Program-made: the position numbers and the translations under genes
Shown: positions 27,849 through 63,012 of the stretch, piece after piece
How the letters are laid out: each line of letters begins with the position of its first letter
Position numbering within the stretch: the first letter of the stretch is position 1
The notes under the pieces: model-generated
Told to the model about the DNA's origin: nothing
Database searches by the model: none
Seen by the model: the letters and a program-made list of their open reading frames with translations, nothing else
Assembly (NCBI RefSeq): GCF_024296685.1
Contig: NZ_CP100763.1
Location: 2,666,001-2,730,000, forward strand
Source: Natrinema marinum
GTDB taxonomy: Archaea; Halobacteriota; Halobacteria; Halobacteriales; Natrialbaceae
Direction: 5' to 3'
DNA length: 64,000 nt

Positions 27849-29459
27849 TCAGCCCTCGCCGATCATCCGGTCTTCGTCCTCCCACTCCTGCTTGCGCAGT
27901 TCGTACTTCTGGGTCTTCCCGGTCGCTGTCTTGGGGAGTTCCGTGACGTACTCGATCCGACGGACGGTCTTGTAGCTCGCCAGTCGATCGCGGGTGAACT
28001 GGGTCAGTTCGTCGGCCGACACCGGTGGGTCGTTCGGATCGCCGTTCGACGGGACGACGAACGCCTTCGGCGTCTCGCCCCACTCGTCGCTCGGTGCGGG
28101 GATCACCGCCGCGTCGGCGACCGCATCGTGGTCGAACAGCGTGTCCTCGAGTTCGATGCTCGAGATGTTCTCGCCCCCGGAGATGATGATGTCCTTCTTG
28201 CGGTCCCGAATGGCGATCAGCCCGTTGTCGTCGACCGTCGCGAGGTCGCCAGTGTGGTAGTAGCCCTCGACCCGGTCGTTGAACGCTTCGTCGGTCTGGT
28301 CGGGCTTGTTCCAGTAGCGGTCCATCACCTGGTTGCCGCGGACGACGATCTCGCCGAGCGTCGCGTCGTCGCGGGGGACATCGTTCCCGTCGTCATCGAC
28401 GACGCGAACCTCGGTGCCGAGGACGCCCATCCCCTGGCGCTTCTTGATCTCGAAGCGGTTCTCGTCGTTCATCAGCCGCTTGGTGTCGGAGATCGTAATG
28501 AGGGGACCGGTCTCGGTAGCGCCGTAGAGGTGTTTCAGGTACCAGCCGAAGCGGTCCTCGACGGCGCGGATGGTGGCCTCCGGCGGCGCGCTACCGGCGG
28601 TCGTCACCCGAACCTGCTTCTCGCCCATCATCTCGGGTTCGCCCTCGCTCTCGTAGTAGTCGATCAACTGATTGAGCACCGCGGGAGCGGCACAGAGGAA
28701 CGACACGTCCTCCGCGCGGATGGCGTCGACGACCTCGTCCGCGTTGACCCCGCGCGTGCAGACGTGAGTCGCGCCCATCCCGGTCACCGCGTAGATGTGG
28801 CCCCACCCGTTGACGTGGAACATCGGCAGCGTCCACAGGTAGGTGTCGTCGTCGGTGATCTCGTGATAGATCGACATCAGATAGGCGTGGATGGTCTCCG
28901 TCCGGTGAGTCCGGCAGACCCCCTTCGGGTCGCCCGTCGTGCCCGAGGTGTAGTTGATCGTGATGATCTCGTCCTCGCTCATCTCGGGCTGGTCGAACTC
29001 GGTGCCGGCCTCCTCGAGCGCCGCGTCGAAGCTCTCCCACTGGCCCTCGACCGCGTCGGCGTCGTTCGTGACGAACGTCTCCGTCGGCACGTCGTCGCGG
29101 ATCGCCTCGATCTTCTCGGCGTACTCGTAATCCGCGTAGATCGCGTCGACGCCGGCATCAGAGAGGATATACTCGTAGTCGTTCGGCTCGAGGCGGTAGT
29201 TCAGCGGCGTGAAGATCGCCCCGAGCTGCATCGCGCCGAACGCCGCCTCGAGGTGGTAGTGGGTGTTCGGGTCGAGTACCGCAACGCGGTCGCCTTTCTC
29301 GATGCCCCGTTGCTCGAGCGCCGCGGCGAACCGGTCGGCGCGCTCGCCGAACTCCGCGTACGTGTATCGGTCGCCGTCTACCCCGACGATCGCGTCCTCG
29401 TCCCCGTAGTAGGTGCGAGCCTGCTCGAGGAAGTCCGTGACAATGAGTGGCGTTTCCAT
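27849..29459 (-). CDS. Long/medium-chain acyl-CoA synthetase (AMP-forming)
   Basis: The enzyme activates a fatty or other carboxylic acid with ATP and CoA. It has 536 residues. The AMP-binding P-loop is YTSGTTGDPKG, followed by YGATETGP (A5), GDLATVDDNG (A7), DRKKDIIISGGENISS (A8) and the catalytic Lys in PKTATGK near the C-terminus. Chain length cannot be predicted. The start is the ATG at 29459 (METPLIV); a TTG three codons upstream is less likely. The decayed gene at 401-645 is its paralogue. Confidence 0.92.
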   Translation of the reverse strand: METPLIVTDFLEQARTYYGDEDAIVGVDGDRYTYAEFGERADRFAAALEQRGIEKGDRVAVLDPNTHYHLEAAFGAMQLGAIFTPLNYRLEPNDYEYILSDAGVDAIYADYEYAEKIEAIRDDVPTETFVTNDADAVEGQWESFDAALEEAGTEFDQPEMSEDEIITINYTSGTTGDPKGVCRTHRTETIHAYLMSIYHEITDDDTYLWTLPMFHVNGWGHIYAVTGMGATHVCTRGVNADEVVDAIRAEDVSFLCAAPAVLNQLIDYYESEGEPEMMGEKQVRVTTAGSAPPEATIRAVEDRFGWYLKHLYGATETGPLITISDTKRLMNDENRFEIKKRQGMGVLGTEVRVVDDDGNDVPRDDATLGEIVVRGNQVMDRYWNKPDQTDEAFNDRVEGYYHTGDLATVDDNGLIAIRDRKKDIIISGGENISSIELEDTLFDHDAVADAAVIPAPSDEWGETPKAFVVPSNGDPNDPPVSADELTQFTRDRLASYKTVRRIEYVTELPKTATGKTQKYELRKQEWEDEDRMIGEG

Positions 29460-29659
29460 ACGACGCAATTTTTGCGAATGCGGCAGATACGTATTTCGTT
29501 TCTTATCAACTGGTCGGAACTGGCGCCCCCAAAGAGGTGGGGCGGCGACGACGGTGACGAATCGCTACGGACGGAGAGCGGTGCAGAAACGGACCGAAAG
29601 CCGGTCTCGACGGCAGAACCGAACGCGCGGGGAGGTACCGAGAACAGCCGCGATATCCG

Positions 29660-30835
29660 TCAGAGCTGTTCCCAGACTTGCTCGTCGTCGTCGAAGTCCG
29701 GTTCGTCGGACGAGGTGAACGCGTCGCCCCCCTCGAGTTCCGAGAGGTCCTCGGCCGAGAGGTCCCCGTCGGCGTCGACGACGGGCGGTTGCTCCTCGAG
29801 GTCCATCTCCGGCCAGGCGGTCTCCTCCCAGAGGCCGCGGTCGCTGTAGTAGTAGACGACGCCGTCGTTGACGACCGCGAACAGCCCGCGTTGTTGGTCG
29901 TGGACGACGCGCTCGTTGGTGTCGATGGCCACGTCGACCACGTCCTCTAACGTGTCGAGCGAGACGTGGTAATCGCCGATCCACATCGGAATCGAGCCCC
30001 GCGAGATCCACTCCGCGTAGCGTTGTTCGTGGACCGCTCGGCGGGCGGCGTCGATATCGGTCGGCGAGCGCCGGGCGACGACCGCAGCGCTGACGAGCGA
30101 GAGCGTTCCGAGCACCGACAGGCCGCCGATCAGCGCCGTGCCTCGGGACTCGGTCGTCCGTTCGACGCCGCGTTGATAGCTGTGAGTCGCCGAGTCGGAC
30201 AGCGAGCCGCCGACCCAGTAGGCATTACCGGTAATCTGCAGCGGAGCGGTCGAGGTCAACGTCCCCGACTGCCGGCCGGTGTCGTACGTGACGCGAAGCT
30301 CCATCGTGAGCGAGACCGAGCCGATGCCGCTGACTTCGCGCTGGAGTTGCTGCTGTCGCTGCTGGTAGTCTTCGATGTCGATGGTCGCCTCCGAGGTCGC
30401 GACGCCGTCTTCGATCGTCGGCGACTCCCGTAACACCTCGTGGGTCTCGTTCCAGAACGTCGATCCGTCGCGAGTCGCCTCAAAGCGGAGGACGAGCTCG
30501 TGGGTCACGTTCGCGTCCTCGAGCGAGCCGCCCGACTCTCGCAGCCGCGTTTTCGGCGTGACCGTCAGCTCCGGCGAGGCGTTGAGCACGTAGACGGAGC
30601 TATCGGTGAGCCGTTCGCCCTCGTTCCAGAGCGTGCCGTTTTCGGTGACGACAGCGCTCGTCCCCACGCCGGTCGTCACGCGCTCTTCGCCGAACTGCGG
30701 CTCCGTCGTCGTCACCGGGTTGGCGACGGCCCAGCCGCTCGCGCCGATGGCGAGCACGCCGACGACTGCCAACACGATCACGATCGATCGACCGCTTCGT
30801 GCGAGCAACAGATCGAGCCGCGGATTATCGATCAC
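29660..30835 (-). CDS. DUF5305 family membrane-anchored protein
   Basis: A 391-residue protein with an N-terminal membrane segment (about 18-40), a beta-rich outer domain (about 45-235) and a second membrane segment (about 240-260). A cytoplasmic acidic C-terminal part follows, ending in DDDEQVWEQL. The pattern fits haloarchaeal DUF5305, a family found beside signal peptidases and DUF1102 proteins. It is the last gene of the minus-strand surface set (DUF1102, CARDB-like, signal peptidase, this gene), 160 bases after the signal peptidase. It could be an assembly platform or anchor (inference). Confidence 0.72.
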   Translation of the reverse strand: MIDNPRLDLLLARSGRSIVIVLAVVGVLAIGASGWAVANPVTTTEPQFGEERVTTGVGTSAVVTENGTLWNEGERLTDSSVYVLNASPELTVTPKTRLRESGGSLEDANVTHELVLRFEATRDGSTFWNETHEVLRESPTIEDGVATSEATIDIEDYQQRQQQLQREVSGIGSVSLTMELRVTYDTGRQSGTLTSTAPLQITGNAYWVGGSLSDSATHSYQRGVERTTESRGTALIGGLSVLGTLSLVSAAVVARRSPTDIDAARRAVHEQRYAEWISRGSIPMWIGDYHVSLDTLEDVVDVAIDTNERVVHDQQRGLFAVVNDGVVYYYSDRGLWEETAWPEMDLEEQPPVVDADGDLSAEDLSELEGGDAFTSSDEPDFDDDEQVWEQL

Positions 30836-30995
30836 TCGTGGGACACCTGCCGAATCGCGATTGGACCTGCCGTCCGCCAGCCCGGTTCGACCCGCGGTCG
30901 GCCGTCCCGCGAGCGGGGTTGAATACCGGGATAATCACGGATAGATGAAGGAAATCGACTATTATAAGCGTAGTGGCTTCTCTAGTCGCCGGCGG

Positions 30996-32171
30996 TCAGT
31001 CTCGCAACCATTTGCGAAGCTTTCGCTGGAGACGGGTCGACAGCGCGACGTGATCGCCCGGCGTGCGAAACCGGATGTCGCCGCTGCCGAAGATCACGAG
31101 GACGAGCGCGACGGAGAGGCCGACGATGACGCCGTTGACCGCGGCGATCGCGACGAGCGGATGGACGCCGTGGAGCCAGACCAGCACCCGTGGCGGAAAG
31201 AGGGCGAGATAGCGGTACTCGCCGAGGTGGCGCGTGTATTCCCCGGTCTCCTCCGGTGCGGAGAGTCGTACCGTGGTCTCGCCGCCGGCGCGGCTGCCGA
31301 CCGTCTGCCACTCCGGCGTCGTGGCGATCCCACCGCTTTCGGCCTCGTGGACGACGACCACCGGGAGATAGCCGGCGTTGTCGACGGTGCGCGTGAGTTC
31401 GGCCGTCGCGCCTGGCGCGACGACCTGCGGATCGTCGCTCGGCGATTCGGTGCTAACGAGTCCGTACTCGTAAGTGCCCGAAGGCACGACCATCGCCGCG
31501 GTCGCGAACGTGACGAACACGAGCAAGACGAGCCCGAGCGCCGTCCAGAAGGCGATCACGTTCTCGCGGGAGCGGCGTCTGGTCGTTTCTCGGTGTTCGG
31601 GTCCGAGGCGCTCGAAGACGGTGCCGAAGCCGAGCAAGGCGACGCCGACGGCGACCAGCATCGAGCCAAGGCCGTCGGAGGTGGCCGTCGTCGTCACGCC
31701 GACGATCGGCGCGACCGTCCCGTAGACCTGCTCTGCGAGCCCCTGAATCGCCATGACGGCGCTCCCGAGGTGAGGGATCGTCACGACCGTCCCGCGGATC
31801 TGGAGGGCTTCGGCGACGATCTGACCCTCCTGAACGGGGGGCTCGCCGCCGTCTTGATCGGTAAACGGGTTCGCGTCTCCTTTCGTCACGTAGCCGTCGT
31901 CGGTTTCGTCGACGACGCGATGGGTCGTCAGGCCGCCGTCGTGGAGCTCTCTGGCCTGAAAGACGACGACGTCGTCCTCCTCGACGTCGCCGGAGACGAC
32001 GCTCGGAACCGCGACGAAGCCGTCGCCGGCGTCCATCGTCGGCTCCATGCTGCCGGTCGCGACGTAGCCCAGCAGGATCGGCTGGCCGAGGAGCTGACCG
32101 ACGAGCAAGAGGATGACGACCAGCGCGACGACGAAGCCGAGTCCCCGCTTGACGAGGTCGGTGGCGGTCAT
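30996..32171 (-). CDS. ER-type (SipW-like) signal peptidase I with extra C-terminal domain
   Basis: An S26B serine protease that removes signal peptides outside the membrane. After a membrane helix (about 10-33) it has TGSMEPTM with Ser41, the general base in TTHRVV (His84) and TKGDAN (Asp99): the Ser-His type of the eukaryotic and SipW branch. At 391 residues it is much longer than the core enzyme. After about residue 130 come further membrane helices, a beta domain (about 240-330) and a basic C-terminal tail (RLQRKLRKWLRD). It sits among surface-protein genes, suggesting a dedicated substrate set. Confidence 0.85.
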   Translation of the reverse strand: MTATDLVKRGLGFVVALVVILLLVGQLLGQPILLGYVATGSMEPTMDAGDGFVAVPSVVSGDVEEDDVVVFQARELHDGGLTTHRVVDETDDGYVTKGDANPFTDQDGGEPPVQEGQIVAEALQIRGTVVTIPHLGSAVMAIQGLAEQVYGTVAPIVGVTTTATSDGLGSMLVAVGVALLGFGTVFERLGPEHRETTRRRSRENVIAFWTALGLVLLVFVTFATAAMVVPSGTYEYGLVSTESPSDDPQVVAPGATAELTRTVDNAGYLPVVVVHEAESGGIATTPEWQTVGSRAGGETTVRLSAPEETGEYTRHLGEYRYLALFPPRVLVWLHGVHPLVAIAAVNGVIVGLSVALVLVIFGSGDIRFRTPGDHVALSTRLQRKLRKWLRD

Positions 32172-32331
32172 GGGCAGGATGCGAGGACGGTCATGATTGG
32201 CTGACGGTTCGAGTTCACTATGCGACTGCTCCAGTATAAAGCCCGCGAGAGTTCCGACGACGGAGACTCGAGGTCGACGCGCTCGAGGAGTTGTAGTTTC
32301 GTCTACGCGGTCGAATCGGCTGCACGGACGG

Positions 32332-33483
32332 CTACCGAAGGATCGCCCAGCGACGGTTCGCCGTCACCGCGAGGAACAACAGCCCCGCCGTCGCTGGCGG
32401 CGCGAGTGCGGCCGTCGTCGACGCTGACAGCTCCCGGTTACGGATCGTAAACGGCCCCGGCTCCTCGACCGTCACCGCTCCGGCGGCGACCCCGCTGACC
32501 GAAATCTCGTACGTTCCCGGCTCGGCGAAGGCCCGCTCGAAGGTCACCGTCCGTTCGCCGTTGGCCGGGATCGAAACGGCCCGACTCTCGACGACGATCC
32601 CGTCGACCGCTAGCTCGAGCGTGCGGTCGACTGGCGCGTCGGTCGGGTTCCTGACTGTCGCTTGCATCGTCGCCGTCTCCCCCGCAGTGACCGTCTCGTC
32701 GCCGACGGAGGCGGTAACCACCTCGATCGGCGGCCCCTCGACGGTCACCCGCCTGCTCCCGATTCCCTCGACGCCGACCTCGTAGGCGCCCGGCCAGTAC
32801 ATCGTCCGCTCGAAGGCGACCGATTTCGTCTCGCCGGGTCGCAGCTCGAGCGTCCGCTGATCGACGACCGTCCCGTCGACGGTCAGCGACGCCGTCGTCG
32901 TCCCTCGTTCGTCGCCGTAGTTGTGGTACGTGACGTTGGCCGTCAACGTATCGCCGGTCTCGAGCGCCGTCGGCGAGACCGTGAGGTTCGTCCCCTCGAT
33001 CGCCGGCTGGGAACCGGATTCGGGCGTCGTTTCGTCGGCGTACTCCACCACGACCGAGAACGATTCCGTCCCGCTCTGAGCGCTGTGGGTGTCGACCGCG
33101 ACCCCGACGTGTGCCGTGTCGCCGGTCGATAGCTCGAGCGGGTTCGATTCGCTGACGACATCGGTCGGATCGTCGCCCCTGTAGAACGTGAGCCCCGCGA
33201 CGTCGTTCTCGATCCAGACCCGCTCGACCTCGTCCTCGGTGACGGTGATCGTCAAAACGTTATCTGCACGCGTGACGGCGTCGTCGTTCAAGTTCTCGAG
33301 ATTGAGTTCGACTGCCCCGCCGGAGACCGTCGCGTACTGGCCATTCGGACCGCTCGAGGGAGCCAGCTCGAGGCTCGAGGTCGTATCGGCCTGCGTCCCG
33401 CCCGTCGCGGCGATCACGACCGCGCCGGTGGGGACGATCCCCATGATAACGAGGACGACGATGGCGGCGGTACGGAGTGACAT
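32332..33483 (-). CDS. DUF1102-like surface protein with CARDB-type repeats
   Basis: A 383-residue exported protein: a signal segment (about 6-26), a DUF1102-like beta domain (about 35-150), then two Ig/CARDB-like repeats (about 165-250 and 255-340). Each repeat has the pattern TALETGDTLTANVTYHNYG and TVTAGETATMQATVRNPTD. A C-terminal hydrophobic helix (about 357-375) is followed by NRR, anchoring it in the membrane. The DUF1102 part (FYRGDDPT..GDTAHVGVAVDT) is clearly related to the next gene upstream (VYDGDTPG..GNTGAVGIAVNT). Confidence 0.75.
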   Translation of the reverse strand: MSLRTAAIVVLVIMGIVPTGAVVIAATGGTQADTTSSLELAPSSGPNGQYATVSGGAVELNLENLNDDAVTRADNVLTITVTEDEVERVWIENDVAGLTFYRGDDPTDVVSESNPLELSTGDTAHVGVAVDTHSAQSGTESFSVVVEYADETTPESGSQPAIEGTNLTVSPTALETGDTLTANVTYHNYGDERGTTTASLTVDGTVVDQRTLELRPGETKSVAFERTMYWPGAYEVGVEGIGSRRVTVEGPPIEVVTASVGDETVTAGETATMQATVRNPTDAPVDRTLELAVDGIVVESRAVSIPANGERTVTFERAFAEPGTYEISVSGVAAGAVTVEEPGPFTIRNRELSASTTAALAPPATAGLLFLAVTANRRWAILR

Positions 33484-33531
33484 GGGTCGATGACAGCTAG
33501 GGAACCGAACAGGACGGTGAGCGCGTTAGTA

Positions 33532-34029
33532 TCAGGCCGTGGAGGTCGCTTCGATGGTGATCGTGTGATCGTCGGCCGAGTCGAACGTAGTCGTATTGAC
33601 CGCGATCCCGACCGCACCAGTGTTACCGGCGTTGACAGTACCGATGCTGGCGGTCTGGCTATCGTCGAAGGTACCGGGCGTGTCGCCATCGTAAACCATG
33701 AGGCCACTGCCGCTACTGCTGACGGTCACGTCGACGTTCTCCGCGCCGTTGTTGGTGATATTCAGGAGTCCGTCGTAGTAGATCGTCGAGTTCTCGTTTA
33801 GGTCCTGGAACTGGATCTGGATCGCATCGCCCGACCCGTTCTGGACGTAACTGTCCGTCACGGTGTCGTTTAGCTCGAGTCCGAGCGCAGCGTTTGCGTC
33901 GCCGGTCGTCTCCACGGTCACGTCACGCGTCGCTTCCACCTGACTGAACGCCCCGGAGGCGATGAGCATCCCGCCGAGGAGGATCGTCGTTCCAAGCACG
34001 AACAGCACATTGCGTCGATTCATTCTCAT
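33532..34029 (-). CDS. DUF1102 family secreted protein with SipW-like signal
   Basis: A 165-residue protein. NRRNVLFVLGTTILLGGML is a basic N-region plus hydrophobic core. It runs into IASGAFSQVEATRDVTV, a start of the kind seen in SipW-processed fibre proteins such as TasA and camelysin. The mature part (about 120 residues) is all beta in character, with DANAALGLELND and TITIEATSTA. It is the first gene of the minus-strand surface set; the abundant fibre or envelope subunit is a fair guess. The ATG at 34023 is an alternative start. Confidence 0.75.
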   Translation of the reverse strand: MRMNRRNVLFVLGTTILLGGMLIASGAFSQVEATRDVTVETTGDANAALGLELNDTVTDSYVQNGSGDAIQIQFQDLNENSTIYYDGLLNITNNGAENVDVTVSSSGSGLMVYDGDTPGTFDDSQTASIGTVNAGNTGAVGIAVNTTTFDSADDHTITIEATSTA

Positions 34030-34475
34030 GGGTATGATCTCGTTTCGGACCGCCCCGGCAACCGTATGCGACGGTTGACCGGCCCGGTTCTTACTCGATC
34101 CTATGAACGTCATCCACTTTGTATTGAGCCGCCAGAACGTCAGAAAGACCGGCCATACGGCCGTTCAAGCCGGCCCTGAAGGAGCGGCTCGAGCCGAAAG
34201 CAGGTCGAGAATCCGTCCGAAAACCGGTTTGAACCGAGTGGCAGCCTCGCTCGAGAGAGTCGACCGGATGTGTCGGTCGGTCGCTGCAGGAACGGGACCG
34301 AGACGAGCCCTCGAGCGACGTCGACAGTGAGCCAACACTGGTGGGACGGAGGACGATGTCACCGGGCGAGTCGGCAGGGAGCCAGCGTCGTAATCCACGT
34401 TCACGAGACACACACGTCGGCGATAAGGGTTATGTGACAGTAATTCGTTTGTTCGCGACAGAATGGGGGCGTACC
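34030..34475. other. Divergent intergenic region of the surface locus
   Basis: These 446 bases separate the two surface gene sets and contain no convincing gene. A hairpin CAACCGT-ATGCG-ACGGTTG (34059-34077, 7-bp stem) lies 30 bases upstream of the DUF1102 start, in its presumed leader. Toward the other side, a TATA-like GATAAGGGTTATG (34422-34434) and a G-rich run (GGGGG at 34465-34469), 6 bases before the ATG at 34476 and usable as a ribosome site, mark the promoter and leader of the regulator gene. Confidence 0.45.
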
Positions 34476-35012
34476 ATGGCGACGAAGGGTGAGGCTGGGC
34501 CCCAGCGCGGCGAGATTTTCGATCTCCTGAGCAATCACCGTCGTCGGTACGCGATTCACTACTGCAAGCGGGAAGACGAGCCGGTGACGCTCGGCACCCT
34601 CGCCGAACACGTCGCCGCCTGGGAACTCGACAAGGAGGTCGACGAAATCACCTCGGCCGAGCGAAAACGGGTGTACACGTCGCTTCAGCAAACCCACCTC
34701 CCCACGCTCGAGCAGGCCGATATGATCAAGTTCGACGATCGAACGATCGAGCTCACCGACGAGGCGTCCGAGTTGGATGTCTACCTCGATGTCGTCCCGG
34801 AGGACTCGATCCCCTGGGGGTACTACTATCTGGGGCTGACCGCAGTCGGGTCCGTCGTGATGGCCGGGCTGTGGCTCGACGTGATTCCGACCGAACCGGT
34901 CTCCGCGCTCGGGTGGGCGACGCTCGTCTTCGCGCTGTTTGGCATCTCCGCGGTCGTCCACGTCGCGCAGAGCCGGCGGATGCGCCTCGGAGAGATGGAA
35001 CGGCCGCCATGA
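34476..35012 (+). CDS. Membrane-bound winged-helix regulator (DUF7344-like)
   Basis: A 178-residue protein. Residues 12-105 carry a haloarchaeal DUF7344-type winged helix (EIFDLLSNHRRRYAIHYC, then TLGTLAEHVAAWE and a LPTLEQADMIKFDD wing). Two membrane helices follow, at about 114-132 and 142-160, with a basic tail. It would be a membrane-tethered transcription regulator. The last four bases overlap the next start codon (ATGA at 35009-35012), so it is translated together with the secreted protein downstream, which it may control. Confidence 0.75.
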   Translation: MATKGEAGPQRGEIFDLLSNHRRRYAIHYCKREDEPVTLGTLAEHVAAWELDKEVDEITSAERKRVYTSLQQTHLPTLEQADMIKFDDRTIELTDEASELDVYLDVVPEDSIPWGYYYLGLTAVGSVVMAGLWLDVIPTEPVSALGWATLVFALFGISAVVHVAQSRRMRLGEMERPP

Positions 35013-36055
35013 CCAACAGGGTCACGAAACTCGGCGTCCTGTTCGTGCTGCTGGGTGCTCTCACGCTACTCGCGCCCGCGTTCGGGTTCGACTTTCTCGC
35101 TATCGATCGCGGGATCGACGCGAGCGTCGCGGACGACGAGCAAAACGCACCGCTTGGCGTTCGGACGACGTACGACGGAACTACGATCGAGTACGAGACC
35201 GGCTTCTTCGGATTCCCGCGGACGAACACGACCGCGACGGTCGCCGAGCTCCGGAACAACGTCGATAGTCCGTTCACCGTCGAAGCCGAGGTTTCGTCGG
35301 TCGTCTGGGCGAGCGGTAACGACCAACGGGTGTTAGCTCCGGTCTCGAGCAGCCTGACGCTCGGAAGTGGGCAGACGGATACGGTCGAACTGCGGTGTAG
35401 TCAGGAAGTCGCTGGCGAGGCCAGCGACGCGACGGTCGATCTCGACCTGAAAGCGTCGGGTACGCCGGTCACCATCGATCGCCGGGAGTACACGGTAAGC
35501 GGCGTTTCGTTCGCGTGCGAAGGAACGCAAAGCGCGGGCAGTGGCGGGCCGGACGAGATCATGCCGATCGGAGAGACCGACCTCACCCTCGTCAACGGAA
35601 GCGTCGCGGCCGAACAATCGACCGGCGCATCGCAAGAGCCGGGAAGCCGAGTCACGTTCGACGTGAGAAACGACGGGTCGGACGATATCATGGTGACAGG
35701 CATCGGGGTGTACAACACGACGAGTACCGCAAACGAGGTCTACTACTGTGCGAACTACTGGTTCTTCGGCTGTACCGCGACGGACAACGAAGTCACCATC
35801 GACGGAACGACCGACGGCTACCGGAGCGTCGACGAGGCGATGGCCATCGGCGAGGGCAACACCTACGACCTCGACCAGAACGCGACGATCGCGACGGGCG
35901 ACACCGCGACGGTCGCGATAGAGCAGTTCCGCGAGGACGGATTCAACACCCAGGTCGATATGAGCGGAACGGAGGTTACGGTGGTGCTCGTCGTCGAGGA
36001 CAACACTACCGGCGAAGAAGTCGGTATCGAGACGGAGCTTACGCTTCCGCCGTAG
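35009..36055 (+). CDS. Secreted beta-rich Cys-pair surface protein A
   Basis: A 348-residue exported protein: basic start MTNRVTK, hydrophobic core to about 27 (LGALTLLAPAFGF), then AIDRGIDASVADDEQNA. The first domain (about 35-170) has two cysteines in TVELRCSQE and VSFACEGT, and the next gene has the same arrangement (VTLVCAES and VDIQCNKG), so the two share a homologous domain, probably with a disulfide. The second domain (about 185-348) contains another Cys pair (YYCANYWFFGC). There is no C-terminal anchor. It overlaps the regulator gene by 4 bases. Confidence 0.72.
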   Translation: MTNRVTKLGVLFVLLGALTLLAPAFGFDFLAIDRGIDASVADDEQNAPLGVRTTYDGTTIEYETGFFGFPRTNTTATVAELRNNVDSPFTVEAEVSSVVWASGNDQRVLAPVSSSLTLGSGQTDTVELRCSQEVAGEASDATVDLDLKASGTPVTIDRREYTVSGVSFACEGTQSAGSGGPDEIMPIGETDLTLVNGSVAAEQSTGASQEPGSRVTFDVRNDGSDDIMVTGIGVYNTTSTANEVYYCANYWFFGCTATDNEVTIDGTTDGYRSVDEAMAIGEGNTYDLDQNATIATGDTATVAIEQFREDGFNTQVDMSGTEVTVVLVVEDNTTGEEVGIETELTLPP

Positions 36056-36367
36056 CGCCACGGTCGTCCGACGGTGGGTCCGAACGGATCCGTTGCGAAG
36101 CGGTTCGACACCGAGAAAAAAGAGATGCGCGCTTGCCCGTGAGCGTCCGCTCTTCTCCGCGTTCACCCCGTTTAGATCGGAATGAACGATTCTGGATCGA
36201 ATGAACGTTCTGAATGGTATACCGTCTTTATACGGACCTGACCGGAAGCGGAAGGTAGCAAGCGTCGGGAAACCGAACGGCGTCGCCGGATCTCGTCCGA
36301 ATCGTGGCCGTGATGCGGTGTTCATCGACGGTTGCCAGATCGCAAATGGAACAGGAAGGGGGAAGGC
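36056..36367. other. Intergenic region between the two Cys-pair proteins
   Basis: No gene is seen in these 312 bases. A TATA-like TTTATA at 36227-36232 would give a leader of about 110 bases for the next gene. A purine-rich AGGAAGGGGG at 36352-36361 lies 6 bases upstream of the GTG at 36368 and is a plausible ribosome site, which decided the start. Confidence 0.4.
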
Positions 36368-37219
36368 GTGTTCAGGAATCCGATGGTCAAACCGGCGGTC
36401 GTGTGCATTCTCGCGGGAACGCTCTTACTGGCCGGACCGTCGTTCGGATTCAGTTCGTTCGCGGCAGATCGCGGCGTCAGCGGCGAGGTCGTCGCCGACG
36501 CGAACGCGAACCTCGCCGTCGACAGTGCGGGCGACATCGGAACGCTCCGCGGTGACAGTTCGCCGAAGCGAGCCGCGACCCTGACCAACAATCTCAGTGA
36601 AGACGTCGACGTCCTCGGATTCGAAATCACCAACGACGGCAACGCGTTAGCGGTCGACAGTCCGACCCCCGGCTCGACGATCGCGTCCGGAACGAGCGAC
36701 GACGTGACGCTCGTGTGCGCGGAATCGACTTCGGTCGGCGTCCGCAACGTCGAAGTCGAGGTGACCGAAGTCGACGGTCCGACGACCACGATCAGGGGCG
36801 TCTCGTTCAACGTGACCGTCGATATCCAGTGTAACAAAGGCAGCGGCAGCGGCGTCGTGAACTTCAGCGCCGACGACATCGCCACCACAAACACGAGCCA
36901 GACGTTCTCGTTCAACGCGGACGGATTGAAGAACAGGGACGAGGCGTACATCGATCTCAGCGACCCACAGACGAGCGGTGGCGTGGACTACACCGGCGGG
37001 ACTACCGTCGTCACCGGCAGCGGCACAGCCACCTACGACGCCGCCACCGACCGGATCGTCTACACTACGTCCGGCAACCCGAAGGGAACGATCGAGATCC
37101 GGATCGACGGAATCGACGTCACCGGGAGCGCCGGCGAGCGGTATACGGTCACCTACACCGAGCAACGAAAGGGAAGCAACAACCGCGAGGACAGCGATAT
37201 CTTCTATCTCACCGGGTAG
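36368..37219 (+). CDS. Secreted beta-rich Cys-pair surface protein B
   Basis: A 283-residue exported protein. From the GTG start, the N-terminus (MFRNPMVKPAVV..LAGPSFGF) aligns with that of protein A, including the following ADRGVSGEVVADANANLAV. The DxNAxLxV piece is also shared with the DUF1102 protein at 33532. The first domain holds the conserved Cys pair; the C-terminal half (about 165-283) is Thr/Gly/Ser-rich beta sequence, ending SDIFYLTG. An ATG at 36383 is the alternative start. It is probably secreted and either cell-associated or assembled. Confidence 0.7.
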   Translation: MFRNPMVKPAVVCILAGTLLLAGPSFGFSSFAADRGVSGEVVADANANLAVDSAGDIGTLRGDSSPKRAATLTNNLSEDVDVLGFEITNDGNALAVDSPTPGSTIASGTSDDVTLVCAESTSVGVRNVEVEVTEVDGPTTTIRGVSFNVTVDIQCNKGSGSGVVNFSADDIATTNTSQTFSFNADGLKNRDEAYIDLSDPQTSGGVDYTGGTTVVTGSGTATYDAATDRIVYTTSGNPKGTIEIRIDGIDVTGSAGERYTVTYTEQRKGSNNREDSDIFYLTG

Positions 37220-37357
37220 GCTGCTGACGAACCGAGACCGAATCGCGGTCCGCTGTCCCCTCGAGTCGACACCGCTGTGAGGTGCCGTGGCTGCGTCCGG
37301 TAGACCGTCGTCGATCAATGCGAACGCCTTTTTAGCGCCGGCCTCCCACGTTCCCCC

Positions 37358-37675
37358 ATGTCGACCGAATCGATCAGCGACCGACGCGAGCACATTCGCT
37401 CGGTCAGCGTGACCGCCCTGTCCGCGCTGGCGGGTGTCGCCGCGGCGCTGGCCTCCGCGACCTGGGTTGGCCTCTCGGAGGCGGCGGCCCAGAACACGCA
37501 GGCGCTCGCGTTCGTCCTGGGCGCGATTTTCGTCCAGTATCTGCTCATCAACGTCTCGGGGATCTACGGCGAAGACGAGTTCGGGACGAAACACTACCTG
37601 TTCATCGGGTTCATGACCTTCGCACTCTGGTTCGTCACGTGGGGCATCCTGCTCACCGCGGAGGCGACGGGCTAA
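37358..37675 (+). CDS. EMC6-like small membrane protein
   Basis: A 105-residue protein with three membrane segments at about 15-36, 47-67 and 81-100, linked by the loop NVSGIYGEDEFGTKHY. Size, topology and position immediately before the ABCE1 gene fit the archaeal EMC6-like family, related to a subunit of the eukaryotic membrane protein insertase EMC. The stop codon is separated from the ABCE1 ATG by a single base, so the two are co-translated. The assignment rests on topology and neighbourhood more than on motifs. Confidence 0.6.
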   Translation: MSTESISDRREHIRSVSVTALSALAGVAAALASATWVGLSEAAAQNTQALAFVLGAIFVQYLLINVSGIYGEDEFGTKHYLFIGFMTFALWFVTWGILLTAEATG

Positions 37676-37676
37676 G

Positions 37677-39491
37677 ATGGCCGACGACAGCATCGCCGTC
37701 GTAGATCTAGACCGGTGCCAGCCCGACCGGTGTGGCTACGAGTGCAAGAACTACTGTCCGCCTAACCGCACGGGAAAGGAGTGTATCACCCTCCGCGGCG
37801 AGGAGGCCGACGAGGGCCAACCCGAACAGATCCACATCTCCGAGGAGATCTGTCTGGGCGAGACCTGCGGGATCTGCGTCGAGAAGTGTCCGTTCGACGC
37901 CATCGAGATCATCAACCTGCCCAAGGAATTACAGGACGAGCCCGCCCACCGCTACGGCGAGAACGCCTTCTCGCTGTACGGGCTCCCGGCACCCCAGGAC
38001 GGACAGGTCACCGGCATCCTCGGTCCCAACGGGATCGGGAAGACGACCGCCGTCCGCATCCTCGCAGGCGAACTCGAGCCGAACCTCGGCCGCTACGAGG
38101 AATCGCCGGGCTGGGACGAGGTGCTGGAAGCCTACCGCGGGACAGAGCTACAGGATTACATCGCTGACGTACGCGACGGCGACGTGACGATCGCGCGAAA
38201 GCCCCAATACGTCGACCAGATCCCGAACAGCTTCGACGGCAACACGCGAGAACTGCTCGAGCGAACCGACGAGCGGGGGGCCCTCGAGTCGCTGGTCGAG
38301 CGGCTCTCGATCGGGCCGGTCATGGAGCAGTCGATCGACGACCTCTCGGGCGGCGAACTCCAGCGGGTCGCGCTGGCGGCCACGCTGGCTCGCGATACGG
38401 ATTTCTACTTCTTGGACGAGATCACGCCGTATCTGGACATCGGCCAGCGCGTGACGGCGGCGCGATTGATCCGCGAACTCGCCGAGGAAGAGGACAAGTC
38501 GATGCTGGTCATCGAACACGACCTCGCAATTTTGGACCTGCTGGCCGACACGCTCCACGTCGCCTACGGTGAGCCCGGCGCGTACGGCGTTATCACGTCG
38601 CCGAAGTCGGTCCGCAACGGGATCAACGAGTACCTCTCGGGCTATCTCGACAACGAGAACATGCGGATCCGGCCGAACCCGATCGAGTTCGAAGAACACG
38701 CACCCCGGAGCGTGACCCGCGCGGACACGCTCGTCGAGTACCCCGATCTGACCAAGAGCTACGGCGATGGGGAGTTCACCCTCGAGGTCGAGGGCGGCGA
38801 GATCCGCGAAAACGAAGTGCTGGGCGTCGTCGGTCCCAACGGGATCGGGAAGTCGACGTTCGCGAAGCTGCTGACGGGCAACCTCTCTCCCGACGCGGGC
38901 GACGCCGATCTCGACCTCGAGATTTCCTACAAGCCCCAGTACGTCACCATCGACCAGCACATGCGGGTCGACGCCTTCCTCTCCTCTATTACGGACCAGT
39001 TCGGCTCGTCGTACTGGAACACCGAGATCGCTCAGCCGCTCCAACTCGAGCGGATCATGGAGCAGACCCTCTCGGACCTCTCGGGCGGGGAACGCCAGCG
39101 AGTCGCCATCGCGGCGTGTCTCTCGGACTCGGCGGATCTCTACCTGCTGGACGAGCCCTCCGCCCACCTGGACGTCGAACAGCGCGTCCAGGCCACGAAG
39201 GCGATCCGCCGCTACGCCGAACAGCAGGACGCCACCGTGTTAGTCATCGACCACGACATCTACATGATGGACCTGCTCGCCGACCGGCTGATGGTCTTCG
39301 ACGGCGAACCTGCGGTTCGCGGTCGCGCCGGCCAACCACAGCCCATGCGCGACGGCATGAACGAGTTCCTCGCGAACCTCGAGGTGACCTTCCGCCGTGA
39401 CGAGCGCACCTCGCGCCCGCGGATCAACAAGCCCGAGTCGCAACTGGATCGCCAGCAGAAAAGCGAGGGCGAGTACTACTACGCGCCCTGA
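37677..39491 (+). CDS. rli: ABCE1/Rli1 ribosome recycling ATPase
   Basis: ABCE1 splits terminated ribosomes into subunits. The 604-residue protein starts with two 4Fe-4S clusters (cysteines in CQPDRCGYECKNYC and CLGETCGICVEKCP). Two ABC domains follow: NBD1 has Walker A GPNGIGKTT and signature LSGGELQR, NBD2 has GPNGIGKST and LSGGERQR. NBD2 reads DEPSAHLD at Walker B/D-loop while NBD1 reads DEITPYLD. The C-terminus ends in a charged tail. It is expressed with the EMC6-like gene one base upstream. Confidence 0.97.
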   Translation: MADDSIAVVDLDRCQPDRCGYECKNYCPPNRTGKECITLRGEEADEGQPEQIHISEEICLGETCGICVEKCPFDAIEIINLPKELQDEPAHRYGENAFSLYGLPAPQDGQVTGILGPNGIGKTTAVRILAGELEPNLGRYEESPGWDEVLEAYRGTELQDYIADVRDGDVTIARKPQYVDQIPNSFDGNTRELLERTDERGALESLVERLSIGPVMEQSIDDLSGGELQRVALAATLARDTDFYFLDEITPYLDIGQRVTAARLIRELAEEEDKSMLVIEHDLAILDLLADTLHVAYGEPGAYGVITSPKSVRNGINEYLSGYLDNENMRIRPNPIEFEEHAPRSVTRADTLVEYPDLTKSYGDGEFTLEVEGGEIRENEVLGVVGPNGIGKSTFAKLLTGNLSPDAGDADLDLEISYKPQYVTIDQHMRVDAFLSSITDQFGSSYWNTEIAQPLQLERIMEQTLSDLSGGERQRVAIAACLSDSADLYLLDEPSAHLDVEQRVQATKAIRRYAEQQDATVLVIDHDIYMMDLLADRLMVFDGEPAVRGRAGQPQPMRDGMNEFLANLEVTFRRDERTSRPRINKPESQLDRQQKSEGEYYYAP

Positions 39492-39530: not shown

Positions 39531-40052
39531 TCACCCCATGAGGCGCTGACAGCTCCCACAGAGGTTCTCCTCCTTGATGTCGACCTCGCGGACGGTCGGC
39601 GAGAAGTTCATGACACAGCGGTTGTTGTCGCAGTGCTCTAAGCCGTAGGTGTGGCCGATCTCGTGGACGATCTCCTTGCGGACGCGGTCCTCGAAGATGT
39701 CGGCGGCGCTCTGATTCGAGAAGCCGCCGTCGCTCGAGGTCTGGAGCCGATAGGTCGAAACGACGCTGCCGCTGCCGTCGAGGTAGGCCAGGCCGAAGAC
39801 GTAGTTGCGCCGTCGATAGAAGAGGTCCTTGGGGGTGATGGCGATGTTCTTCTCGCCGCGGCCGATCCGCTCGGCGAGCTGGATGAACGTTTCGGCGGAG
39901 TACTGGTTTCGGTCGGAGTCGTAGGCTCCGTTGGGGACCGACTGCGAGTCGTTGACCGAGACGTCGCAGTCGTAGACCGATCGCAACGCGGTGGAGGCCG
40001 ACCGCTTGACCTCCGCGGGGACGTTGCCGACCGGCACGATATCGACGAGCAT
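39531..40052 (-). CDS. amzA: Archaemetzincin
   Basis: A single-domain zinc peptidase of 173 residues. The long zinc motif HEIGHTYGLEH is at 130-140, followed by the archaemetzincin four-cysteine site (Cys141, Cys146, Cys165 and Cys168) that binds a second zinc, and the Met-turn CVMNF. The start is the ATG at 40052 (MLVDIVPVG), which fits the family. No export signal. It is divergent from the UPF0146 gene, with only 39 bases between the start codons, so the promoters must overlap. Confidence 0.93.
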   Translation of the reverse strand: MLVDIVPVGNVPAEVKRSASTALRSVYDCDVSVNDSQSVPNGAYDSDRNQYSAETFIQLAERIGRGEKNIAITPKDLFYRRRNYVFGLAYLDGSGSVVSTYRLQTSSDGGFSNQSAADIFEDRVRKEIVHEIGHTYGLEHCDNNRCVMNFSPTVREVDIKEENLCGSCQRLMG

Positions 40053-40091
40053 GGAAAGTGGTATGGCCGCGGGCGGCATAAACGTCCCGCC

Positions 40092-40496
40092 GTGGCCCAC
40101 TCCCGCCGGAATTTAACGACACTGAATGATCACCTCGCCGACTACGAGCGCGTCGTCGAGATCGGGATCGGCCGTCGGACCGAGACGGCTCGAGCGCTGG
40201 CGGACCGCGGGCTCTCGGTGACCGCGACGGACGTTCACGACCGGGCGGTTCCCGACGGCGTGGAGTTCGTCCGCGACGATATCGTCGACCCGGAGCCAAC
40301 GGTCTACGCGGGCGCGGACGCGGTGTACGCGCGGAACCTGCCACCGGAACTTCATCGCCCCGCGCTCGAGGCGGCCCGCGACGCCGGCGCCGACTTCCTG
40401 TTTACGACCCTCGGTGGCGACCAGCCGGCGGTACCGGTCGAGCGGACGACGATCGCGGAGGGGACGCTGTACGTTGCTCGAGCGCTGCCGGAGTGA
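40092..40496 (+). CDS. UPF0146 family protein (SAM methyltransferase-like fold)
   Basis: A 134-residue protein from a GTG start. The first beta-loop-helix (YERVVEIGIGRRTETARALADRG) resembles the SAM-binding motif I of Rossmann methyltransferases, and TATDVHDR fits motif II, as in UPF0146. The catalytic half of a methyltransferase is missing, so activity is uncertain. The start is set by the short gap to amzA; the longer upstream open frame is antisense to amzA. Confidence 0.75.
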   Translation: MAHSRRNLTTLNDHLADYERVVEIGIGRRTETARALADRGLSVTATDVHDRAVPDGVEFVRDDIVDPEPTVYAGADAVYARNLPPELHRPALEAARDAGADFLFTTLGGDQPAVPVERTTIAEGTLYVARALPE

Positions 40497-59790: not shown

Positions 59791-60183
59791 TTACGCTTCG
59801 TCCGTCACCCCGTAGAACGCTCCCATCTCGGTATAGCGAGCGAACACTGCTTGCGCGCCCGTCTCGATCGGCAGCGTATCCGTCTCGGACGCGAGCTCGA
59901 AGAACTCGTCCCCCTCCCGGATACCGAACCGAAGCTCGATCTCGACCGAGCGGCCGCTCCCTGGATACTCGAGTGCATTTTCGAACCGATCGATTTCGCC
60001 ACCGGCCACCGACCCCGTCTCCTCGAAGTCCTCGATACGAATCTCGTAGTCGATCCGCTCGTCGATGTCGTTTCGTATCCAGACGTTGAGATCGGTCGAC
60101 AGCGCACTGAGACAACCTGCAGTACTACTAATCGCGCCCGCCCCCACCATCTTCAGGAGCGTTCGCCGATGGTTCTCCCCCAT
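59791..60183 (-). CDS. Tat-exported lipoprotein, unknown
   Basis: A 130-residue protein with a twin-arginine start (HRRTLLK at 5-11), a hydrophobic core and a lipobox ending ISSTAGC (Cys24), so it should be exported folded and lipid-anchored. The mature part is acidic beta sequence (VWIRNDIDERIDYEIRIEDFEET, SVEIELRFGIREGDEFF). No family recognised. It is the last typical high-GC gene before the AT-rich region. Confidence 0.75.
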   Translation of the reverse strand: MGENHRRTLLKMVGAGAISSTAGCLSALSTDLNVWIRNDIDERIDYEIRIEDFEETGSVAGGEIDRFENALEYPGSGRSVEIELRFGIREGDEFFELASETDTLPIETGAQAVFARYTEMGAFYGVTDEA

Positions 60184-60391
60184 AACCGCGTTTCAGTAAT
60201 GATATACTATAATATTTCCTATCTGTAGACAGATCCATCGTCGTGTCCTGGAGAAATACTACCAGAGATATTCGGCGAAAAGAGCGGATCGCTGCTCGCC
60301 ACTGCGTCAGTGCTCCTGACGGCGACTGGGTACCAACGATACGAGCGAGAAACGGGTCACTCAGCAACCCCTGGCATGGCGCGCAGTTCGT

Positions 60392-60832
60392 CTAGAGGTC
60401 TACGATGGACGAGAGAGATGAAGCATCGGGAATGTGTGGGCCTCGGCACTCATGGTTTTCTACTGTGGTACTACAATTACCACAGTCTTCTATAGGATCT
60501 GAGACGACTAGAATACTTCGGTAATAGGTGATACTATAGTTCAATTCATTTTCAAAAGTTCTCTCTAGAAATACTGTCAGTACTTTAGTTATAATCTCTT
60601 GAACACATAATTCACCCAACTTATTGTCAGATGATATAATATTATCAATGCTAACTGGACCAAGTCCTATATCAAAGGATCGGTGAATGTGACGTGTCGG
60701 GGACTGAACATCAATATCAAGCTCTGCGATATCCACGAAAATGAGCATGAGTGTATCTGTGAGTTCCTTGAACGCAGACTCTATATCGTCCTCTGACACC
60801 AAGATCGGCACCTTCTGGATATAGACGCTCAT
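60392..60832 (-). CDS. Orphan protein in AT-rich region
   Basis: A 146-residue protein starting at the ATG at 60832. Composition is less acidic than the haloarchaeal average, with many Ile, Ser, Thr and Asn codons ending in A/T. The first half (VSEDDIESAFKELTDTLMLIFVDIAELDI) is helical; the rest is mixed, with CVQEIITKVLTVFLERTFENELNY. Three cysteines lie near the C-terminus (DCGNC, HEC). I do not recognise it. A TATA-like box is about 31 bases upstream, and it is divergent from the TGT-like gene. Confidence 0.55.
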   Translation of the reverse strand: MSVYIQKVPILVSEDDIESAFKELTDTLMLIFVDIAELDIDVQSPTRHIHRSFDIGLGPVSIDNIISSDNKLGELCVQEIITKVLTVFLERTFENELNYSITYYRSILVVSDPIEDCGNCSTTVENHECRGPHIPDASSLSSIVDL

Positions 60833-60859
60833 ACACGGATACAGCGGTAAGATCTGAGT

Positions 60860-60883
60860 GATATATCTCTCACGCTTATATGG
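60860..60883. promoter_or_regulatory. Divergent promoters of the right-hand island
   Basis: Minus-strand GATATATC at 60860-60867 fits a leaderless start for the gene at 60832. Plus-strand CTTATATGG at 60875-60883 serves the TGT-like gene at 60941 with a leader of about 35 bases. The two boxes are 7 bases apart, so the two genes cannot easily be transcribed at the same moment. Confidence 0.5.
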
Positions 60884-60940
60884 ACACAATTCGCTTCATA
60901 ACCCAAACGGCTTAACCAACTGGTCTAGTAAGTCCCTGCT

Positions 60941-61873
60941 ATGGGAAAACGGCCTGAGATTGGCGCATTTGCGGAGGAAGTCGAGGACTTCCACGCGGAT
61001 CCTGATGACTTGGAACATTTTGATCCTCATCTGGTCTTAGGATACTTTCAACGCCTGGAGATGATCTTGGATGAATGTCCTGTGAATATCTATGCGGCAT
61101 CGTCGCTTAAGCATCCCTGGCCATATCGATTGCAAAAGGCCGGGGAGTGTGCTCCGGCATCGTTCTGGCGGAGTCAGCACCGCATCTTGGATTCTAATAT
61201 CACCGATCCACGGGTCACCAATGAGGACATCCTTGAGGAGGCGATACAGAAGGACGCGACAGCTGTCGTTGCCAAAGACTACCTGCCATTTCATCTCTAT
61301 GATCGCAAGTTTGACTTGGAAGAGCTGACGGGGGCAGCAAGCCACAGAGAGGCAACGACCCAAAGCATCCAGGAATTTATCGACCTCCACGATCCCGATC
61401 GGCACCCCCCGGCATATATCCCGCTGCAGCCCCCGTATGTCGATCACATACAAGATATCAGGGAAATTGTCGTCGACAGTCATCTCGAGGAGAAGTACAT
61501 GCTTGGCGGGCTCAAAAACGCGAACCCGAAACGACGGATCAGTGAAGCTCAGGCCCTCCGAGACGAAATCGGTGGCGAGCCGGACCTCCACGGACTGGGC
61601 TGGGGGCTCTCGGACGCCCTTGTTGAATCCCTCCGACACAATCCGGACCTGATTGAGTCCGTTGATAACAGCGGTCCATCACAGGCTATTCTTAACGACG
61701 GCCTGCTTGACAAGCACTGGCAAAAACAACCATTTGGATTGGTCGAAGGACAGATGCGGAACTCGGTCGCAGGTGCATTCGAGTTCGGAATCCTCCTCCA
61801 GGCAACGCACCGGCTCACCAAGTACAATACCGAGTTTACCACGAACCAGAAGAGTATCAGCGACTACCAATAA
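60941..61873 (+). CDS. Divergent TGT-fold protein without zinc site
   Basis: A 310-residue protein. The C-terminal half reads as the later strands of a tRNA-guanine transglycosylase TIM barrel: PLQPPYVDHIQDI, YMLGGLKNANPKRR, HGLGWGLSDALVE and IESVDNSGPSQA (Asp242 at the position of the TGT nucleophile). Earlier, RILDSNITDP and AVVAKDYLPF fall where substrate-binding strands would be. The Cys-x-Cys zinc motif of TGT is missing. This is either a base-recognising partner or a DpdA-like enzyme. It lies 8 bases before the next gene, so they form one operon. Confidence 0.5.
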   Translation: MGKRPEIGAFAEEVEDFHADPDDLEHFDPHLVLGYFQRLEMILDECPVNIYAASSLKHPWPYRLQKAGECAPASFWRSQHRILDSNITDPRVTNEDILEEAIQKDATAVVAKDYLPFHLYDRKFDLEELTGAASHREATTQSIQEFIDLHDPDRHPPAYIPLQPPYVDHIQDIREIVVDSHLEEKYMLGGLKNANPKRRISEAQALRDEIGGEPDLHGLGWGLSDALVESLRHNPDLIESVDNSGPSQAILNDGLLDKHWQKQPFGLVEGQMRNSVAGAFEFGILLQATHRLTKYNTEFTTNQKSISDYQ

Positions 61874-61881
61874 CCCGGGTC

Positions 61882-62331
61882 ATGACGAAAACCTTGGCGC
61901 TTGTAGGCTGTGGAAGCGAAAAACGTGATAAGCGGACGGAAGCGAAGTCACTCTATACCTCCACCTACTTCGCTAAAAAACGGCAGTGGGCCGAAGGATG
62001 CGATACCTGGCGTATCCTTTCTGCTGAACACGGGGTTGTCCACCCAGCCACTGTTTTGGAACCGTACGATACTGCGATGGCCGACCTCAGCGACGAGCAG
62101 ACCAATGAATGGGCGACAGATGTCATAGCCGATTTGGGTCCACAGCTCAGTAACTTTGACAACGTTGTCGTCCTCGCTGGCCGTGACTACTTTGCCCCAA
62201 TCAGTGACGAACTTCGCCAAGCAGCACCCACGGTGCAGTGGCCGTTTCAGGGAAAGAGGCTGTTCGAACAGATGGAATGGCTCAACCAAACCTCTCCCCC
62301 AGATCAGTCCACACTTGGATCGTTCGAATGA
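61882..62331 (+). CDS. DUF6884/YaaA-like protein 1
   Basis: A 149-residue protein. It opens LALVGCGSEKRDKRTEAKSL and continues RILSAEHGVVHPATVLEPYD, the pattern of DUF6884 proteins, which resemble the DNA-binding YaaA family. A ThrLysAla..YTSTYFAKKR helix sits between. The conserved Cys10 and the Ser-Ala-Glu-His (about 46-49) could be catalytic or binding residues. It is the second gene of the operon starting at 60941. Function unknown; the same architecture appears again at 62530. Confidence 0.65.
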   Translation: MTKTLALVGCGSEKRDKRTEAKSLYTSTYFAKKRQWAEGCDTWRILSAEHGVVHPATVLEPYDTAMADLSDEQTNEWATDVIADLGPQLSNFDNVVVLAGRDYFAPISDELRQAAPTVQWPFQGKRLFEQMEWLNQTSPPDQSTLGSFE

Positions 62332-62496
62332 CGCCCGATAAAATCCGACTTTTTCCCCCAAAACAAAACCATAAGAGTATATAATTGACTAGTCGGTTCC
62401 GGTTACCACTCTATATCCATACACTTCAGAAACCGCCGGTATGATGCCTGTACTTGTTGAATTCACCTGTTACACGGCGCGGTAGAGAACGTGGTA

Positions 62497-62506
62497 AGCT
62501 ATAAGG
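62497..62506 (+). promoter_or_regulatory. TATA-like box before the second DUF6884-like gene
   Basis: AGCTATAAGG is centred about 28 bases upstream of the ATG at 62530. A stronger TATATAAT at 62378-62385 lies 150 bases upstream and would produce a leader of about 120 bases; either may be used. Confidence 0.45.
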
Positions 62507-62529
62507 TCTCGGGGTCGAAAGAGGGAACC

Positions 62530-63012
62530 ATGTCAATACTGCTGGTACAGTCATGCTCAAAGTCCAAAAATAGGCCGGGAGAACCGGTCAATGCCCTTGA
62601 ATTGTACTCGGGATACTTCTTCAAAATCATCAAGAAAGCGATACGTGATGATGAACTGCAGGATGAAATCGATATTTGCGTTCTCTCGGCCGAACACGGA
62701 TTAATCGATACAACTGACGAAATCAGCTACTACGACCGACACATGAACCCGGATCGAGCAGCTGAGATCCGGGATGACATTACAACGGAACTGCGAGGAA
62801 GAGTTGCTGAGAACGATTACGAGCATGTCATCTTCAATCTCGGATCAGCATACAGGAGTGCGATCGGCGATCTGTCTGACCTTCCGGCATCGGTCCAGTT
62901 TATCGAAGGCGATGGCATCGGATACAAAGGACACACACTCAAACAGATCATCCGGGGCAACTATTCGTCGCTTGAGATGGAGGTGAGGAATGCCACAGCT
63001 CAAGCAAACTGA
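62530..63012 (+). CDS. DUF6884/YaaA-like protein 2
   Basis: A 160-residue protein related to the previous gene: MSILLVQSCSKSKNRPGE with CSKSK matching CGSEK, ALELYSGYFFKIIKKAI matching the helix SLYTSTYFAKKRQ, and ICVLSAEHGLIDTTDEIS matching RILSAEHGVVHP. Both proteins thus share the SAEHG core. The C-terminal half is different, with HVIFNLGSAYRSAIGD. The 3' end overlaps the start of the TGT gene by 23 bases, indicating translational coupling. Confidence 0.65.
   Translation: MSILLVQSCSKSKNRPGEPVNALELYSGYFFKIIKKAIRDDELQDEIDICVLSAEHGLIDTTDEISYYDRHMNPDRAAEIRDDITTELRGRVAENDYEHVIFNLGSAYRSAIGDLSDLPASVQFIEGDGIGYKGHTLKQIIRGNYSSLEMEVRNATAQAN

Follow-up and report, generated by a model that had tools for sequence, protein, structure and literature searches.

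In TasA fibres the N-terminal donor strand of one subunit enters the next (PMC9674648, where the archaeal bundling pilus 7UEG is also termed TasA-like), and the phenylalanine at position P2' of TasA is handled by the signal peptidase SipW and poorly by LepB of E. coli (PMC10269814). TapA has a complete, disulfide-bonded immunoglobulin (Ig) fold and an N-terminus, AFHDI, that is like the AFNDI of TasA, and its position is limited to the filament end (PMC10151520); a donor-only cap, Saci_0405, has been proposed for the Sulfolobus threads (PMC9715654). The PDB entry 9P0A, 'Structure of Natrinema sp. J7-2 Tafi pilus' (released 2025-07-23), contains a single chain sequence. TasA, the bundling pili and Tafi are donor-strand fibres that form without a chaperone-usher machine in an outer membrane. 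How such fibres are initiated, given an orientation and anchored is the question we address here, using a locus at positions 29660-37219 of a 64,000-nucleotide stretch of Natrinema marinum DNA (hereafter the window). It consists of two divergent gene sets, a leftward one for a pilin, an anchored CARDB protein, a signal peptidase and a DUF5305 protein, and a rightward one for a DUF7344 candidate regulator and two secreted proteins, C1 and C2, that we propose as tip subunits. We consider it very probable that this is a Tafi-type pilus locus, that is, one for a TasA-like, donor-strand fibre, of a Natrinema-like haloarchaeon.

In a sequence search of solved structures, the window pilin matched one chain only, the 'Pilin' of 9P0A (E 1.3e-10, residues 1-140). 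That chain is identical over all 215 residues to the product of a gene of Natrinema gari JCM 14663 (L059:7965-8612), which has the regulator gene on one side and the CARDB gene on the other, and we compared the two slots via this N. gari locus, as the carrier of the identical gene. In both, the pilin gene is followed by those for the CARDB protein, the peptidase and DUF5305, the DUF7344 gene and a Cys-pair tip gene lie on the other side as in the window, and both flanks are common (acyl-CoA ligase 86%, EMC6 89% and ABCE1 94% identity). Common order, common flanks and the identical N. gari gene together make the window locus the positional counterpart of the known Tafi locus, and the gene at 33532 is a positional and sequence homologue of the solved Tafi pilin. 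The suggestion in the initial annotation that this could be the haloarchaeal equivalent of the TasA/SipW fibre is thus supported, and the system had already been described at structure level, beyond what that annotation knew: the pilus type is known, both from the PDB and from family models, while the species-level locus, its pair of tip genes and the part code discussed below may be new. The two loci also differ. The window pilin is shorter (165 versus 215 amino acids) with a diverged body, the window has C1 and C2 where N. gari has one bactofilin/FapA-like tip, and it is without the DUF7289 gene that lies between regulator and pilin in N. gari (L059:4815-7523, minus strand), the 902-amino-acid product of which has a type-IV-pilin-like N-terminus. 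In 9P0A, 188 of the 215 residues are modelled, with numbering to 215; provided that no gap lies within the chain, the first modelled residue would be about Phe28, and the mature GA-F N-terminus would be ordered in the fibre.

The association of these genes extends well beyond Natrinema. A scan with the peptidase, using one genome per species, gave 239 relatives and 80 loci, 64 of them with enough flank (37 from Natrialbaceae and 27 from other haloarchaea) for genes to be counted within 8 kb of the peptidase; these loci are related to each other and so are not independent events. Pilin-like genes were present in 63, DUF7344 in 60 and DUF5305 in 61 of the 64. Among the Natrialbaceae loci the counts were 37 (pilin-like), 36 (DUF7344), 37 (DUF5305), 33 (CARDB-type) and 33 (C-type, that is, related to C1 and C2), and among the other haloarchaea 26, 24, 24, 16 and 16. 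The genes are associated more often than expected by chance, and gene maps show the divergent pilin/regulator arrangement kept in most loci. Full-length peptidase relatives occur in 147 of 194 haloarchaeal genomes, about three quarters, and a TafE-like match in 87 of 116. Median identity between the window and its Natrialbaceae orthologues is highest for the regulator (77%) and peptidase (72%), followed by DUF5305 (62%) and the CARDB protein (53%); it is 57% for the pilin signal and N-terminal segment, 29% for the pilin body and 28-34% for the C-type proteins. Such a pattern would be expected if a constant assembly apparatus serves subunits that are exposed. The Natrialbaceae cassette occupies a fixed slot between the acyl-CoA ligase and EMC6/ABCE1 genes (27849-39491 in the window), which holds a varying number and kind of pilin and tip genes and is a place where surface proteins vary.

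The predicted fold of the pilin agrees with this assignment. An AlphaFold2 model built with 43 sequences (mean predicted local distance difference test score, pLDDT, 74.8) has a confident beta sandwich over residues 44-161 and leaves the residues up to about 43 unpaired. Its top three Foldseek matches are 7UEG, the Sulfolobus thread 7PNB and 9P0A; TasA itself is absent among the matches listed. The initial annotation had expected this product to fold like TasA, and TasA-type pilins are indeed what the model resembles. With VIA-align, the model superposes on 7UEG with Z 8.2 (root-mean-square deviation 2.8 over 109 residues) and on 9P0A with Z 7.3 (2.9 over 111 residues), but a Z of 7-8 is also reached by unrelated Ig-like domains (7.5 for the MSP type), so that Z alone is not decisive and it is the sequence link to 9P0A that decides.

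If the fibre is real, it does not follow that the gene at 33532 encodes its main subunit. The closest NCBIfam model is TafE, a 'fimbrial adapter protein' (78 bits, E 6e-22, cut-off 155), ahead of TafA (55 bits, E 9e-15, cut-off 190), neither cut-off being passed; in the loci of Haloferax and Halorubrum, TafA and TafE are encoded by different genes, and some Natrialbaceae loci hold several pilin-like genes. The 33532 product might then be a TafE-like adapter, with the major subunit, the TafA equivalent, encoded elsewhere or represented by C1 or C2. We consider this quite unlikely. The solved Tafi pilin, which is the sole chain of 9P0A, shows the same pattern and also stays below the cut-off (TafE 77 bits against 155, TafA 53 bits), no other TafA-type gene was found in the window genome, and the bodies of C1 and C2 are complete Ig-like domains, at least for C2 by model. 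Since the TafE cut-off excludes the type case too, the NCBIfam Taf models describe a Haloferax-type subset. Camelysin is another name for the TasA-type proteins of Bacillus, which were historically seen as proteases, and by that token the locus might encode a camelysin-like set of secreted protease and surface proteins without any fibre. No catalytic motif was noticed, however, and the homologue in the syntenic slot has been solved as a pilus, making this explanation very improbable.

If the locus is that of a Tafi-type pilus, as we think, its proteins may also reveal how the fibre is oriented. The mature N-terminus has the consensus AFSSVEADRxVxVxTxGD in the pilins and GFSSIAADRGVSVxTAxD in the C-type proteins; the initial A/G-F was partly used for locating the start, and the conservation of Ala7, Arg9 and Asp18 is independent of that. 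In pairwise hhalign comparisons, the likeness between the C-type and pilin families is confined to the first 30 mature residues (96.5%, E 9e-10). In the CARDB protein it is the N-domain that aligns with the pilin, starting at mature residue 18 and running to the end (98.4%, E 5e-15); this N-domain is thus pilin-like but without the N-terminal donor-type segment; TafF-type proteins likewise match the pilin without this segment, and their comparison with the CARDB-protein N-domain gives E 4e-28. These complementary matches suggest that C1 and C2 are tip subunits that can only donate a strand, that the pilin is a shaft subunit that both donates and accepts, and that the CARDB protein is a membrane-anchored base that only accepts.

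The C1 and C2 bodies bear on the first of these roles. The signal and N-terminal segment of C1 read FGFDFLAIDRGI, and full-length relatives of C1 are present in two other loci, L041 and L040. In both proteins the Cys pair is invariant or nearly so in 31-34 aligned relatives. The AlphaFold2 model of C2 (mean pLDDT 87) has an unpaired N-terminal stretch followed by two Ig-like domains, of which the first is predicted to be a complete Ig-like fold carrying the conserved Cys pair, which probably forms a disulfide. C2 thus combines a pilin-like N-terminus with a complete Ig fold, as a TapA-like initiator should. This first domain resembles the N-domains of pilus chaperones (YadV, Caf1M, FimC; Z 8.6-9.7), and C2 has a weak match to NCBIfam TafC (E 2e-4, 21 bits, far under the cut-off of 410). 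The expectation that C2, too, would prove TasA-like was not borne out: the model body is close to generic Ig-like and pilus-chaperone domains, TasA-type pilins are absent among the matches listed, and the model lends no support to C2 as a TasA-fold pilin. Foldseek matches of C2 to the two-domain adhesins Cna, ClfA and SdrD, at template modelling scores of ~0.3, are not evidence of adhesin function. In a PDB sequence search C1 and C2 gave no matches at E up to 1; TapA was not compared directly.

It is also possible that C1 and C2 share with the pilin only a motif recognized by the peptidase and are secreted surface proteins or sensors in their own right, outside the fibre. The detectable likeness is limited to the 30 residues noted above, and the C-terminal domains of the C-type proteins belong to many types that are not related to each other (beta solenoid, Ig, LamG). 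On the other hand, the alternating pattern and the invariant Arg9 and Asp18 reach well beyond the cleavage site, a C-type gene adjoins the regulator in 49 of the 64 loci, and NCBI gives the LamG-bearing relative the name TafC, that of a fimbrial protein. TapA has exactly such an arrangement of pilin-like N-terminus and distinct body (PMC10151520). We regard separate surface proteins as unlikely, and favor tip subunits.

From these matches we infer how the fibre would be assembled. The Ser-His peptidase would cut the pilin and C1/C2 just before the conserved aromatic residue (GA-F and FG-F, respectively), freeing an N-terminal strand, and the freed strand of the pilin would enter the incomplete beta sandwich of its neighbour. 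Because C1 and C2 carry the strand together with a complete Ig-like body, they could only start or cap the fibre in the manner of TapA, with the C-terminal domain pointing outward, and because the CARDB protein has an acceptor-type domain without a donor segment, it could hold the base in the membrane. DUF7344 would probably control expression, and DUF5305 and the peptidase ectodomain may help assembly. In its fullest form, this scheme would have the locus lay down the polarity of an archaeal donor-strand fibre and would couple cleavage and strand exchange on the peptidase, its Ig-like ectodomain acting as an usher- or chaperone-like platform; in that fullest form we hold it to be possible and rather doubtful. 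Beyond the ambiguity of the Z scores, several points weigh against our interpretation. The segment common to pilin and tips could serve for recognition by the peptidase and not as a donor strand, and the hhalign E-values come from pairwise comparisons and not from a database search. Pilin bodies are only ~29% identical between orthologues, none of the window proteins passes an NCBIfam Taf cut-off (the solved Tafi pilin fails as well), and none has yet been observed in a fibre.

The peptidase had been annotated as a Ser-His enzyme with an extended C-terminus, and so it proved: it passes the archaeal signal peptidase model TIGR02228 (54 bits against a cut-off of 51.85) and continues for ~190 residues past the matched domain, with Ser41, His84 and Asp99/Asp105 invariant in 7 relatives. 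Its match to the Bacillus SipW model of NCBIfam (E 5e-10, 39 bits) does not reach the cut-off of 190. The window genome has other signal-peptidase genes, so this one is probably dedicated to the pilus, and the aromatic residue with which pilin and tips continue past the presumed cleavage site agrees with TasA. The ectodomain is similar to the CARDB repeats in the anchored protein (hhalign 90%, E 1.5e-6), and its reading as a TasA-like domain found no support (0.8%); a role in docking or assembly is our guess. DUF5305 was tried as a pilin relative and gave no hhalign match; it is a candidate assembly or anchoring factor.

Export signals differ between the subunits. A twin-arginine-like signal, MxMNRRNVL, begins 105 of 130 pilin ORFs (open reading frames; 33532-34029 and relatives, L039-L118), and 41 of 45 C-type proteins are without the RR; from their signals, the pilin may be exported folded by the twin-arginine (Tat) pathway and the tips by Sec. 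Elsewhere in the genome (L002:616-1752, minus strand; genome C1 near 563303) lies a gene for another secreted protein, the N-terminus of which is TafE/TafC-like (378 amino acids, FSAVDADRPISVASADDGDALLGLEL); it is far from the pilus locus and adjoins a small winged-helix-like gene, and no peptidase was seen beside it.

All seven genes of the locus are intact ORFs (Table 1). By homology the pilin starts at the ATG at 34029 (MRMNRRNVL), and the GTG start of C2 at 36368, the one given in the initial annotation, is borne out by the correspondence of MFRNP with MLRNP in L041. The ATG of C1 overlaps the stop of the regulator gene (ATGA). Most other features that the initial annotation had read in the locus held up: the DUF5305 protein matches its Pfam family, the CARDB repeats form two stretches, the membrane-bound winged-helix regulator has a DUF7344 match and two membrane segments read from sequence, and C1 and C2 are related (29% identity over 164 amino acids). 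The name 'DUF1102-type', given to two of the proteins, has no Pfam support, as PF06510 gave no matches in the locus proteins or the genome, a weak negative since control genomes also gave none. Near the locus, positions 39531-40100 (minus strand) hold a small archaemetzincin-like metalloprotease ORF with the motif HEIGHTYGLEHC. At the right end of the window (60001-64000) the GC content drops from ~0.66 to 0.51-0.53, which suggests imported DNA.

Table 1. Genes and intergenic region of the pilus locus (window positions).
Feature	Position	Strand	Basis
DUF5305 membrane protein, 391 aa (amino acids)	29660-30835	-	Pfam PF17231, E 2e-49
Ser-His signal peptidase of the SipW/ER type, 391 aa; C-terminal Ig/CARDB-like ectodomain flanked by membrane segments	30996-32171	-	TIGR02228
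Anchored CARDB protein: pilin-like domain and CARDB repeats between a signal peptide and a C-terminal membrane anchor	32332-33483	-	CARDB, E 9e-13
Pilin (shaft subunit), 165 aa, signal MRMNRRNVL...SGAFSQVEATR	33532-34029	-	PDB 9P0A, E 1.3e-10
Divergent intergenic region between pilin operon and regulator	34030-34475	.	Gene-free between both starts
DUF7344 winged-helix protein, two C-terminal membrane segments, candidate regulator	34476-35012	+	PF24035, E 3e-29
C1, secreted Cys-pair protein, proposed tip/initiator subunit	35009-36055	+	Signal and N-terminal segment, Cys130/Cys170
C2, secreted protein with a Cys pair and two Ig-like domains, proposed as a TapA-like, TafC-like tip or initiator subunit	36368-37219	+	AlphaFold2 model

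What the locus offers is a whole parts list in one compact unit conserved in most haloarchaea, the sequence of which suggests a tip, a shaft and a base, and fibre polarity and assembly thus become testable by deletions in a genetically tractable haloarchaeon. Among the described systems beyond Tafi itself, 7UEG is the best structural neighbour of the window pilin model, but the identity is 14% and it comes from another phylum with another gene set. The Sulfolobus thread (7PNB, Saci_0406/Saci_0405) is also a donor-strand fibre and ranks second among the Foldseek matches, at 12% identity and with no dedicated peptidase reported. The Taf fimbriae of Haloferax and Halorubrum (TafA/C/E/F; NCBIfam 2026) have sequence links to the locus: the window pilin matches TafE and TafA, C2 weakly matches TafC, the CARDB N-domain is homologous to TafF-type N-domains, and peptidase and DUF7344 are adjacent, whereas all window scores lie under the curated cut-offs, a distinct TafA gene is missing and the gene order is another. 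The tapA-sipW-tasA genes of Bacillus subtilis show no detectable sequence match to the window on the side of TapA, which was not compared directly, and the archaeal locus differs in the extra ectodomain of its peptidase and in the added anchored CARDB, DUF5305 and DUF7344 proteins. Both systems nonetheless have a dedicated Ser-His peptidase and a mature pilin starting with AF (PMC9674648, PMC10151520, PMC10269814), together with an Ig-fold, Cys-pair partner that has a pilin-like N-terminus (PMC10151520), and the window locus would provide a second, archaeal case of a SipW-type peptidase dedicated to donor-strand fibres.

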